42,263 bases of DNA, from NCBI GenBank assembly GCA_001823055.1, contig MHTH01000006.1, positions 1-42,263 of the forward strand. Direction: 5' to 3'. Numbering within the stretch: position 1 is the first letter of the stretch; every line of letters begins with the position of its first letter. Below are positions 5,026 through 31,970 of the stretch, piece after piece. A model generated the notes under the pieces. The model was not told the DNA's origin. It did not search any database and saw only the letters and a program-made list of their open reading frames with translations. Both the position numbers and the translations under genes were made by a program. Origin of the DNA: Candidatus Vogelbacteria bacterium RIFOXYB1_FULL_42_16. Lineage in GTDB: Bacteria > Patescibacteriota > Minisyncoccia > Phycocordibacterales > XYD1-FULL-46-19.

Positions 5026-6501
5026 TTAGCTCAAATTTTCATTACCCTTCGGCCTCATCAGTGGAAAAATCTGAGTTTCGCGAGCCGGTTTATCACATAA
5101 AAAAGAAAAGAGACGTTCACTGACACCAAAACCAAAAGTTGGTGGCATCCCATACTCCAACGCCTCAACAAATTCATAATCATACCTCTGGGCTTCCTCA
5201 TCGCCCGCTTCCCGCAACTTGGCTTGGTCAGCAAAGCGACCGGCTTGGTCGAGCGGATCATTCAACTCACTAAAACCTTTACCATTTTCCGAACCGGCGA
5301 TAATCACTTGAAAACGTTCTACTAGCGCCGGATTTTCAGCCTGACGCTTGGCCAGCGGTTCCATGGTGACCGGCACATTAATCAAAAAACCCGGTCCGGC
5401 GATCTGTTTGCGACAATATTTCCAGAGATTATCGATCGCTCGAGTGAGATTAAAACCTTTTTGATCATAAACAATTCCTAATTCGCGCAATTTATTTTCC
5501 ATTACCCCTAAATCGGCCGATAAGATATCAATGTCAGTTTGCTCTTTGATGATGGCAACAAAATCGTAAGTCTCCCAATCCTTACTCAAATCAACTTCAA
5601 AACCGCGGATGGTAAATTTTTGGGTGCCAAAAGTCTTTTCAGCCACAAAACGATAAAGTTCTCGGACCAATTCCATCCCCTCCCGATAGTCAGAATAAGC
5701 GGAGTAAAATTCCAAAGCGGTATAATCCTGCAAATGTTCGGCGTCCATCCCCTCATTGCGAAATACTCGGCCAATCTCAAAAGTCTTGGGCAAACCGGCC
5801 ACCATTAATTTTTTCTGCCATAATTCACCGGTCGAAATGCGCAGGTAAACATCTAGATCCAGAGCATTGTGATGAGTAATAAAGGGTCGAGCTTCGGCGC
5901 CACCGGGGGTGTTTTCCAAAATCGGCGTATCCACTTCTAAAAAACCTTTGATCAACAAAAATTCGCGCATCGCTTGCCAAAATTGACTACGTTTGACTAT
6001 CAGCTGACGAGTCTCGTCATTGAGTAAAATATCCAAATAACGTTTGCGTAATCTTTCCTCGACATCTTGCAAACCAGCCCATTTGTCCGGTAGAGGATGT
6101 AAACTCTTGGCCAGAATCCGCCAACTGTCACCCTCGATTGTCTTTTCTCCTCGTTTGGTAATAAAAAAGGTGCCAGTCACTTCCACAAAATCACCGATAT
6201 CGATAGTATCGACAAATAAATCAAAAGTTTCGCCCAAGCTTTCTTTTTTCAATAAGGCCTGTAAACGAGCTGAGCCATCAAACAAATCAAAAAAAGCCAA
6301 TGCGCCCTGAATCCGAAGCGACATCACTCTCCCCCCAACAGTTTTTTTATCACCCGCCGTCGCCAATTTTTCAAAATCAGCCACAACGGTTTGTAAATCT
6401 AAATCAAGATGGCTTTGAGCCGGCCACGGTTCCTGACCAGCCTGCTTGAGCAAAGCCAGTTTTTTTAGCCTTTCGGCCCTAAGTTCTGGGAGAGAAGCCA
6501 T
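5026..6501 (-). CDS. lysS: Lysine--tRNA ligase, class II
   Basis: 491 aa; FRNEGMDAEHLQDYTALEFY, class II motifs, GFGVSERLFSFL near C-terminus. Confidence 0.93.
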   Translation of the reverse strand: MASLPELRAERLKKLALLKQAGQEPWPAQSHLDLDLQTVVADFEKLATAGDKKTVGGRVMSLRIQGALAFFDLFDGSARLQALLKKESLGETFDLFVDTIDIGDFVEVTGTFFITKRGEKTIEGDSWRILAKSLHPLPDKWAGLQDVEERLRKRYLDILLNDETRQLIVKRSQFWQAMREFLLIKGFLEVDTPILENTPGGAEARPFITHHNALDLDVYLRISTGELWQKKLMVAGLPKTFEIGRVFRNEGMDAEHLQDYTALEFYSAYSDYREGMELVRELYRFVAEKTFGTQKFTIRGFEVDLSKDWETYDFVAIIKEQTDIDILSADLGVMENKLRELGIVYDQKGFNLTRAIDNLWKYCRKQIAGPGFLINVPVTMEPLAKRQAENPALVERFQVIIAGSENGKGFSELNDPLDQAGRFADQAKLREAGDEEAQRYDYEFVEALEYGMPPTFGFGVSERLFSFLCDKPARETQIFPLMRPKGNENLS

Positions 6502-29763: not shown

Positions 29764-29875
29764 GTATTTAGGGTTTATTGCTATAATTAGGTCATGGACA
29801 ATTTGTCTGCCATTCGTCTTTCATACGTCTATTAGTATTATATCACAAAACTATTCGCATAGAAACTAGTTGGAC
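29764..29875 (+). promoter_or_regulatory. Candidate attI region between integrase and first cassette
   Basis: Integrase ATG ends at 29763; first G^TT boundary (GTTGGAC) at 29869-29875. Internal att boundaries not determinable by eye. Confidence 0.6.
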
Positions 29876-30598
29876 GAAATAGCAAAAACCTCTTTACTTT
29901 TTATTAAAATTTTGACAGTTTATTATTAATCATACAAAATATGAAGACACCAGACCAAATGGTACCTTATCTAAAGGAGAAAAAAATGGACATCGAGAAA
30001 AAAGAGTTGCACCAGCCAGTCCTTCATATTTTAAAGGAAACGGCAGAAAAGTTTCGCTCTTTAGACCAGGAAGCAGATGTAGCCCTTCAAAGCAAGCGTG
30101 ACACTGCAACCTATAAGCAAAAACTTGAAGAACGAGCGAAACTTTTAATCAATCTTCCAAATCTTTTGTCGGGTAAATTGGAAGACCTTGATTCAGAAGT
30201 TAAGCAAAGAATTGTGCGTGATATTGAATGGTTTGCAACAAGTGCAAATGAAGCGTTGGAGAATAATAATGGTTTTGCGCTTGGAGTACTGCTCACGCAC
30301 CAAGGTAGTAAAAATACCGACAAAAACGATTTGGAAGAATTGATTGCCTTGCTTGAAAAATAAACTGTCAAAATTTCTTTTTTAATCGGAGTCGGCTTTT
30401 GCTACATCGTCCAACACGGGATAAGCGGTTCAGGATTGGCACTCATTTTATAAAATAATGTGTGTGCCAATCCTTCTCCCAAATTCGTTTCCCTTTTATT
30501 TCAAATACATCAATGATTAGTGTGTTTAAAATAATTGAGAAGTGTATATCAAGTTTAACAAATTAAATCGGGAAACGAACTTCGCTTATCCCGATACG
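29870..30598 (+). mobile_element. Integron gene cassette 1 (729 bp)
   Basis: Starts G^TTGGAC; its attC opens with GTCCAAC (30409-30415), the exact reverse complement. Confidence 0.85.
29986..30363 (+). CDS. Hypothetical cytosolic helical protein (cassette 1 cargo)
   Basis: AAAGGAG Shine-Dalgarno just upstream of ATG 29986 (MDIEKKELHQPVLHILKETAEKF...); listed ORF starts at 29941. Confidence 0.75.
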   Translation: MDIEKKELHQPVLHILKETAEKFRSLDQEADVALQSKRDTATYKQKLEERAKLLINLPNLLSGKLEDLDSEVKQRIVRDIEWFATSANEALENNNGFALGVLLTHQGSKNTDKNDLEELIALLEK

Positions 30599-30604
30599 TT
30601 ATAT
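30409..30604 (+). repeat. attC1 (about 196 bp)
   Basis: R'' GTCCAAC; L stem CGGGATAAGCG (30417-30427)/CGCTTATCCCG (30583-30593); R' GTTATAT (30598-30604); interior hairpins AGGATTGGCAC/GTGCCAATCCT and CGTTTCCC/GGGAAACG. Confidence 0.85.
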
Positions 30605-31489
30605 GAAATAATGAAAAATTCTTTTTGCCCTACTGGGCAAAATTAATCGGGACAAATTTATTTTTAAAATTAAAATATTATGAAAAAAATCGCAACTATC
30701 GTTTTAGTTATTGTGCTTTTAATCGTAGCTGGCACATTATCATTTTTAATATTTAACAAGCAAAAACCAAATAACCAAATTTCTTTAACTGGTATTGATT
30801 CATCACAAATCAGGCCGGAAATAAAAATTTATCTTGATGAATTATACGACAGCGAAATTACATCAATAGAACACACAACCGATAGTATAGAGGAAAGCAC
30901 AAGAAGGTTTCCTGATAATCCTAAAATTTTTGAAGCTGGCAGATTTAAAGTTGTTCTTAATAATGACGGCGATAAAAAAGTAATGATTTTTCAAACCGAA
31001 GAAAAAGTAGGCCATATCGCGCCAGTTATTCCCGGTAAAACTGATGTTGGCGGCTATGTTGAAATTCAAAGAAATCCAGAAAGTGACAATTCCGAGGATA
31101 TAGCGCATACGACCCAAAGTATTGAAAATCAAGATAAATTAAACAATATTGCTGATTTAAAACTAAATGAATTTGAACTGGATTATTTAATTAGAATATT
31201 GTACAAAAAGTTTGAAAAACCATTGACTGATGAGCAGGCGCAAAATTTAAATGAAATTAAAGATTATGCCCTGGCGATTAAATTTAGTGGCAGGGATGGC
31301 ATAACCCAATATCATAATAGTTTGGTTAATGAATTAAAAAAATAAATTTGTCCCGATGAATAATTCGCTAATCGCGAATTAAGAATTTTTCATTACATCA
31401 TATAACAGCGTGTATGCGGTTCGTGCTTGGCTCCGCCAAATACTCGCCCATATCCGCCTAAATCGGCGGACATCGCATACACGCGAACG
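30599..31489 (+). mobile_element. Integron gene cassette 2 (891 bp)
   Basis: Starts G^TTATAT; its attC opens with ATATAAC (31400-31406), the exact reverse complement. Confidence 0.87.
30680..31345 (+). CDS. Hypothetical N-terminally membrane-anchored protein (cassette 2 cargo)
   Basis: 221 aa, N-terminal TM KKIATIVLVIVLLIVAGTLSFLIF then soluble acidic domain. Confidence 0.75.
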   Translation: MKKIATIVLVIVLLIVAGTLSFLIFNKQKPNNQISLTGIDSSQIRPEIKIYLDELYDSEITSIEHTTDSIEESTRRFPDNPKIFEAGRFKVVLNNDGDKKVMIFQTEEKVGHIAPVIPGKTDVGGYVEIQRNPESDNSEDIAHTTQSIENQDKLNNIADLKLNEFELDYLIRILYKKFEKPLTDEQAQNLNEIKDYALAIKFSGRDGITQYHNSLVNELKK

Positions 31490-31495
31490 TTAGGC
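31400..31495 (+). repeat. attC2 (about 96 bp)
   Basis: R'' ATATAAC; L stem GCGTGTATGCG (31408-31418)/CGCATACACGC (31474-31484); R' GTTAGGC (31489-31495); interior TCCGCC-TAAATC-GGCGGA. Confidence 0.9.
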
Positions 31496-31921
31496 GAAAT
31501 TTAAATCCTCACTTAACCCATTCAATTTATGAAAAAATATTTACTAATAGCATTTATCTTTTCCGCATTAGTATTGTTGATAGTTTTCGTATTTTTTAAG
31601 AAGGACTCTTTATCAAAAAAATCTGCCACGCCACTAAATAAAGAAATTCTTATTGAGTCATGTCACCAAACGGGTGGTACTTGGAAAGAAGAATCTAATC
31701 CTTGCGAACCTACTTGCGACTATCAACGTAAAAAATTAAAAGGTGAGAAGCTCACTTGTATTGCTCTGGTAGTGCCTAATTGCGAATGCGAAAAAGATAA
31801 ATGCTGGAATGGATCAAGTTGTGAGCCACTTTAACCGGATTTAAACATCGCCTAACACGGCATATACGGTTTCATTACATTACACCCATATTGCTATTGC
31901 AACATCGTATATGCCGAAACG
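31490..31921 (+). mobile_element. Integron gene cassette 3 (432 bp)
   Basis: Starts G^TTAGGC; its attC opens with GCCTAAC (31850-31856), the exact reverse complement. Confidence 0.88.
31529..31834 (+). CDS. Short Cys-rich secreted/anchored hypothetical protein (cassette 3 cargo)
   Basis: 101 aa; N-terminal hydrophobic segment; ESCHQTGGTWKEESNPCEPTCDYQRKKLKGEKLTCIALVVPNCECEKDKCWNGSSCEPL. Confidence 0.75.
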   Translation: MKKYLLIAFIFSALVLLIVFVFFKKDSLSKKSATPLNKEILIESCHQTGGTWKEESNPCEPTCDYQRKKLKGEKLTCIALVVPNCECEKDKCWNGSSCEPL

Positions 31922-31927
31922 TTAACT
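31850..31927 (+). repeat. attC3 (about 78 bp)
   Basis: R'' GCCTAAC; L stem CGGCATATACG (31858-31868)/CGTATATGCCG (31906-31916); R' GTTAACT (31921-31927). Confidence 0.9.
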
Positions 31928-31931
31928 CAAA

Positions 31932-31970
31932 CAACAAGCTTGGGAGAAAGATATTCTCCCAAGCTTGTTG
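31932..31970. terminator. 17-bp perfect hairpin at distal end of cassette array, between convergent genes
   Basis: CAACAAGCTTGGGAGAA-AGATA-TTCTCCCAAGCTTGTTG. Confidence 0.7.

Follow-up and report, generated by a model that had tools for sequence, protein, structure and literature searches.

Integrons are, to our knowledge, understood almost only from Proteobacteria. Here, we describe an integron of the Candidate Phyla Radiation (CPR), found on contig MHTH01000006.1 of Candidatus Vogelbacteria bacterium RIFOXYB1_FULL_42_16, in which the two ends of each gene cassette are complementary to each other over 20 to 26 nucleotides, with an interruption at one fixed place. In the following, ‘the window’ refers to the whole stretch of 42,263 nt, to which all window positions apply. 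The window holds a small CPR integron, consisting of a tyrosine recombinase gene, an attI site and three cassettes (Table 1); none of the three open reading frames (ORFs) in these cassettes gave a family match above cut-off.

Complementary arms at the cassette ends

Each window cassette pairs with its own end at positions 1–22 (with one extra mismatch), 1–26 and 1–20 in cassettes 1, 2 and 3, respectively. Apart from this extra mismatch, these arms are broken only at positions 10–11, where the start arm reads AA and the reverse complement of the end arm reads TG. A preliminary description of this DNA had claimed a complementarity of 20–26 nt past the crossover, interrupted each time at the same place with CA where TT would be expected; both claims hold in all three cassettes, the latter being the AA/TG at positions 10–11. 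By contrast, when the start of one window cassette is compared with the end of another, the common part is reduced to GTT..GA..T. The sequences GTTNNNYGAAAT and ACATCRNNNAAC each occur in exactly three copies in the window, all of them within the array.

A loose attC pattern, scanned over 399 genomes of the same order, matched 10 of them, as opposed to none with the reversed pattern as control, and three (G197, G311 and G317) held arrays on inspection. With a stricter pattern, a scan of 85,488 species genomes yielded 90 stretches, mostly from Patescibacteria, but also from Omnitrophota and some archaeal metagenome-assembled genomes (MAGs; Pacearchaeota, Altarchaeum, Aenigmatarchaeota and Thermoplasmatota), with the caveat that the assignment of MAG contigs, in particular of the archaeal ones, may be wrong. 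Other matches in viral sequences, e.g. loci L042–L072, were mostly lone motif pairs without arms. We delimited cassettes by consecutive attCs, which were found via their inner stem. The resulting set comprises 76 non-redundant cassettes in which both ends show a recognisable motif and which come from 48 loci, mostly of Patescibacteria; their boundaries depend on a custom attC detector, and missed attCs result in composite cassettes.

Across these 76 cassettes, the agreement of a cassette's own ends is 0.70–0.96 at positions 4–9, falls to 0.07 at position 10 and 0.01 at position 11, returns to 0.88 at position 12, and remains at 0.53–0.82 at positions 13–26, before it drops to background (0.32) at position 27. 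Past position 12, agreement is no higher than background for ends that meet within an array (n = 150) and for shuffled ends. Accordingly, 45 of the 76 own pairs reach at least 10 of 14 matches at positions 13–26, compared to 6 of 150 in-array and 139 of 7410 shuffled pairs, and the mean of 9.7 matches out of 14 was reached in 0 of 10,000 permutations, the maximum being 5.6. All four Watson–Crick pair types occur at positions 13–25, as is typical of compensatory change, and in two homologous cassettes, 52 of 52 arm bases are identical at an ORF nucleotide identity of 72.6% (p = 1.3e-7). The end complementarity is real and general in this CPR integron class: in the alignment of cassette ends from related CPR genomes that had been proposed as a check, both the arm and the position of its mismatch are kept class-wide.

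Nor does this position vary freely. Position 11 is A against G in 49 of 51 armed cassettes, while position 10 is somewhat looser (mismatched in 46 of 51); the arm filter admits perfectly complementary arms, L088 being one such case. A retrieval bias from the search motif can be rejected, as the A/G at position 11 is kept in 23 of the 24 cassettes of which neither end had been retrieved by the bait motif. The idea of an extended recognition site specific to this integron class fared less uniformly. The arm does exceed the R box throughout the class, but its sequence is free beyond position 12, and GTTNNNYGA..T is the sole fixed motif of the arms, which also forms the right half of attI. Because only complementarity to the opposite end of the same cassette is conserved past position 12, and in-array junctions are unpaired there, recognition by sequence is not supported.

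For classical cassettes, an own-end pairing of 9–11 nt has been published (PMC2727003), so that the figure of about 7 nt given in the preliminary description is too low a baseline; an arm of 26 nt that is interrupted at a fixed place still lies outside the published range. In the library searched for work on CPR integrons, we found no paper on this point. The Vibrio chromosomal integron (VCR cassettes, IntIA/IntI4) resembles the window class in its cassette array, its attC hairpins and an own-end pairing beyond the 7-nt R box. In control cassettes of Vibrio sp. HDW18, however, this pairing extends over about 11 nt without mismatch, neither a 26-nt arm nor junction hairpins (see below) were seen, and the Vibrio integrase has an extra domain (2a3v). 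Likewise, class 1 cassettes (IntI1) share the R''/R' boxes, the bottom-strand attC, the cassette polarity and the divergent integrase gene, but pair over 7–12 nt in our controls. Outside the CPR, an array on an IMG/VR contig (L073, reverse complement) has arms of about 19–20 nt, whose interruption falls at the same place.

Integrase and recombination sites

Table 1. Features of the integron; positions refer to the window, except in the last row, which lists other loci.
Feature	Position	Strand	Remarks
Tyrosine recombinase, 270 aa	28951–29763	−	divergent from cassettes; without IntI-specific insertion
attI	29854–29880	+	TTCGCATAGAAACTA then GTTGGACGAAAT
Cassette 1, start to R'' end	29869–30415
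Start arm, 22 nt	29869–29890	+
Inner repeat AAATTTTGACAGTTTATT	29907–29924	+	partner at 30359–30376
ORF, 140 aa	29941–30363	+	no family match above cut-off
Inner repeat partner AATAAACTGTCAAAATTT	30359–30376	+	overlaps stop codon
End arm with R'' ACATCGTCCAAC	30394–30415	+
attC1 (R'' to R')	30404–30609	+	182-nt interior, 11-bp L stem without bulge
Cassette 2, start to R'' end	30598–31406
Start arm, 26 nt	30598–30623	+
5'-side junction hairpin TTTGCCC-TACT-GGGCAAA	30624–30641	+
Inner stem, 5' half ATCGGGACAAATTTATTTTT	30646–30665	+
ORF, 221 aa	30680–31345	+	putative membrane-anchored protein
Inner stem, 3' half AAAAATAAATTTGTCCCGAT	31338–31357	+	overlaps stop codon
3'-side junction hairpin AATTCGC-TAATC-GCGAATT	31362–31380	+
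End arm with R'' ACATCATATAAC	31381–31406	+
attC2	31395–31500	+
Cassette 3, start to R'' end	31489–31856
Start arm, 20 nt	31489–31508	+
ORF, 101 aa	31529–31834	+	Cys-rich, putative membrane-anchored protein
End arm with R'' ACATCGCCTAAC	31837–31856	+
attC3, last site	31845–31927	+	R' GTTAACTC without GAAAT after it (array end)
GC-rich insert cases	L140 3048–3622; L193 11131–11913; L084 524–1082; L075 second cassette		L193 and L084 as reverse complement

The window recombinase scores 224.6 bits against NF040815 (‘site-specific tyrosine recombinase/integron integrase’), above the cut-off of 220, and 210 bits against the integron integrase model TIGR02249, below the cut-off of 265; a separate Xer is encoded on another contig of the same genome. 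Its alignment to VchIntIA (2a3v) breaks exactly at the IntI-specific region, where window residues 178–194 lie opposite VchIntIA 182–241, and its KG..DR and H.LRH motifs are 58 residues apart, compared to 100 in IntI1, which has the IntI-specific insertion. By alignment, motif spacing and TIGR02249 score alike, the window integrase lacks the IntI-specific additional domain near patch III. Of 14 array integrases measured, 13 have a spacing of 58–59 residues and one has a spacing of 73; the archaeal integrases of L106 and L096 are also without this domain, which a passage in PMC9668308 (citing Messier and Roy, 2001) describes as necessary for integron recombination. The archaeal integrons of that study are similar with regard to their arrays in MAGs, their attI beside the integrase and their spread across domains. 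Their IntIs are, however, reported there to carry the IntI-specific domain, in contrast to L106 and L096, and the sections of that paper considered here do not mention extended arms.

In a phylogenetic tree, 13 array-adjacent integrases, i.e. that of the window and 12 others, form one clade (support 97/97), which is separate from the housekeeping Xer proteins of their relatives; the integrases of L073, L094 and L096 are placed near this clade, with no resolved position. In L073, an open frame of 366 aa holds an N-terminally extended integrase, which has no IntI insertion and is oriented like the cassettes. While XerA-type recombinases (NF040815; 4a8e, 5hxy) are similar in length and domain layout, the window integrase differs from them in adjoining an attI and a cassette array and in grouping apart from the relatives' Xer. 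It is best classed as a divergent XerA/IntI-like recombinase and not as a canonical IntI, and the system as integron-type by its architecture: the recombinase gene lies beside an attI and attC-bounded cassettes, an arrangement that recurs in other loci of this integrase family, where the gene mostly runs divergently to the array. For the Xer-like matches of the relatives (L004–L022), no array of the window type was found, save for one stray pair in L004.

The attI layout, TTCGNATANAAACNA before GTTNNNYGAAAT, recurs upstream of most integrases of the class. In some attI sites, the crossover is preceded by an inverted repeat (TTTCTATACGAA...TTCGCATAGAAAC in L140, for example), possibly a further integrase binding site. 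The attC sites show the pairing of R''/R' and L''/L', an 11-bp L stem, a spacer asymmetry of 1/4 nt and the AAC and GTT ends. We found no extrahelical L'' bases, as the 11-bp L stems are uninterrupted in the three window sites and in 90 main-register sites, although the detector favoured unbulged stems. The interior of attC1 (30416–30597) is unusually long with 182 nt; in the apical part of their interiors, attC sites of the class have common sub-hairpins and a CACCCAAAT/CACCCATAT segment. Directly behind the last attC, at 31932–31970, we observed a perfect 17-nt inverted repeat (CAACAAGCTTGGGAGAA / TTCTCCCAAGCTTGTTG), perhaps a bidirectional terminator.

Predicted folds and a proposed role in the capture of free cassettes

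In a subset of cassettes, including window cassette 2, a local hairpin follows right after the arm on each side, and then an inner stem of ~20–30 bp near the ORF, so that the whole constitutes a four-way junction. Among the 51 armed cassettes, hairpins directly after the arm occur in 10 (5' side) and 13 (3' side), compared to 2.8% elsewhere, and where both hairpins are present (eight cassettes), the inner stem always matches at 15 of 22 positions or more, a level attained by 7% of shuffled partners.

These structures have a preferred strand. In DNA, loops of the type GNA or GNNA with a closing C-G pair have an unusually high stability; the textbook example is GCGAAGC. The local hairpin loops of attC sites read TNC or TNNC on the top strand, and hence GNA or GNNA on the bottom strand, in 64 cases, as opposed to 7 in the reverse sense (binomial p about 1e-12, with related sites not being independent). 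The junction hairpins lean to the bottom strand as well, and the arms, calculated with DNA parameters, have their more stable fold on the bottom strand in 38 cassettes and on the top strand in 12. Loop and fold asymmetry thus point to the bottom DNA strand. This bias is in line with the bottom-strand chemistry of integrons and argues against a structure in the messenger RNA. At positions 10/11, the top strand has two mismatches, A.A and A.C; the bottom strand is left with a single T.T mismatch, since position 11 forms a T.G wobble there, which is paired in the predicted folds. In this class, both classical strand determinants are absent, since the integrase lacks the IntI domain and the L stems lack extrahelical bases. 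The 10/11 mismatch would be a natural candidate for a substitute, and its role as a polarity mark, which the preliminary description had surmised, appears plausible.

The predicted folds also differ between the free and the inserted cassette. The free energy is predicted at −38.3 kcal/mol for the circle and −25.0 kcal/mol for the array, with a mean gain of 13.3 kcal/mol, and the circle is the more stable form in 50 of 51 cassettes. We propose that, in the free circle, the arms lengthen the attC hairpin of the bottom strand and thereby favour capture over excision, with the mismatch serving as a strand mark, and consider the chances of this proposal to be about even. In the free circle, the two ends of the cassette would flank the attC, and the bottom strand would fold into a much longer hairpin, in which the arm extension adds to the R box, the asymmetric spacer and the 11-bp L stem. 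Upon insertion, each arm would come to lie beside the arm of an unrelated neighbour, and the extension would be lost. Because the arms would extend the hairpin only in the circle, the free cassette would enter capture as a strong substrate that is already folded, and the inserted cassette would be a poor one for excision; from the better predicted fold of the circle, we infer a one-way bias toward capture. The 10/11 irregularity, in turn, would mark the recombining strand and the side that acts as R'. A pairing restricted to the loose cassette would offer a simple physical reason for capture over loss, and suggests that the cassette brings along its own landing gear. With an integrase that lacks the domain, attC stems that lack the bulge and long arms specific to each unit, strand and direction may be chosen differently in this class.

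Several points weigh against this proposal. Its evidence consists of sequences and predicted folds; calculated with DNA parameters, the arms favour the bottom strand only modestly, in part owing to the fixed mismatch itself, and wobbles elsewhere in the arms show no significant bias (12 vs 13). As cassettes share ancestry, our p-values treat related rows as if they were independent. Furthermore, 18 of the 60 first array-defined cassettes are without the extension; missed attCs probably explain part of the arm-less cassettes, perhaps including some of these 18. A few cassettes have a GC-rich insert of ~47–80 nt between R'' and the arm (Table 1). Finally, the arms could serve expression, replication or uptake, or they could record how cassettes are made.

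Wrappers, cargo and competing explanations

The last of these possibilities is the strongest competitor. It holds that the arms are a trace of cassette making, in which a palindromic wrapper, made up of outer stem, two hairpins, inner stem and attC, acted as a vehicle and genes were inserted or swapped at its centre; the complementarity would then exist because wrapper and gene have separate histories, irrespective of any role in recombination. Indeed, 27 cassette pairs have a start arm in common (at least 12 of 14 positions), 25 of them without detectable ORF homology; conversely, the arms differ in several pairs whose ORFs are homologous. Window cassette 2 and cassettes in L106 (a Pacearchaeota MAG) and L136 (a Patescibacteria MAG), for example, enclose different genes between arms that are nearly identical, with junction hairpins and inner stems that are also similar. 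The identity of such shared wrappers ends close to the start and stop codons, and in L075 (G311:C5; minus strand, reverse complement 5772–5813), a gene-less cassette of 42 nt is made up of two 21-nt arms back to back, with an attC on both sides. This suggests separate histories of wrapper and gene, which may bear on the origin of cassettes, with the same wrapping reused around unrelated genes in different phyla. On the other hand, the L075 case is the only empty wrapper across all loci, and the arms are conserved more strongly than the gene, so that they are also maintained at present. As a full account of the arms, we therefore find cassette making possible, but on the unlikely side.

We are a little more doubtful still about a stronger version, in which the wrapper (26-bp arms with the mismatch, a four-way junction made by two tetraloop hairpins, and an inner stem that ends at the start and stop codons) would be an autonomous packaging module that turns unrelated ORFs into cassettes. 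Such a module, if real, would provide a route for the origin of integron cassettes, a long-standing question that shared wrappers around unrelated genes open to comparative tests.

Alternatively, the arms might act in RNA, where the ends of a cassette transcript would pair, join the 5' and 3' untranslated regions, and control stability, termination or translation. The position of the inner stems near the start and stop codons is in line with this idea, and any transcription of the array would include the arms. Yet the strand on which the fold is more stable is not the messenger RNA, the GNA/GNNA loops and junction hairpins favour that same bottom strand, and position 11 would be an unpaired A.C in the transcript, all of which makes a function in RNA improbable. 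A known RNA element can be rejected given this strand bias and an Rfam scan of the array, which yielded no family at gathering score.

Quasi-palindrome correction perfects imperfect inverted repeats by template switching, and hairpin-forming sites are good substrates for it. The arms might then be a functionless by-product of such correction around the extruded attC hairpin. It should, however, erase the 10/11 mismatch, which persists, and would not stop at position 26; in the Vibrio control, moreover, pairing ends at about 11 nt despite strong hairpins. As the constant arm length and the persistent mismatch are seen, in part, across deep divergence, we regard this explanation as very improbable. 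Lastly, it is scarcely conceivable that the arms are ordinary self-pairing of the published 9–11 nt, prolonged by chance in AT-rich DNA, given their sharp edge at position 26, a mismatch inside the classical range, and shuffled-end and in-array nulls of the same composition, by which chance is rejected.

Two further observations concern the anatomy of the cassette ends. Where a GC-rich insert is present, it replaces the ACATC motif exactly between R'' and the end arm, and the arm pairing resumes behind it. In L084, L100, L120, L138, L147, L166 and L200, the 5' ends belong to a wrapper family of ~100 nt with a conserved segment, AGAGGGGTATAAGGTGTT, after the inner stem, and several members have a matching CACCCC..CCCCTCT on the 3' side.
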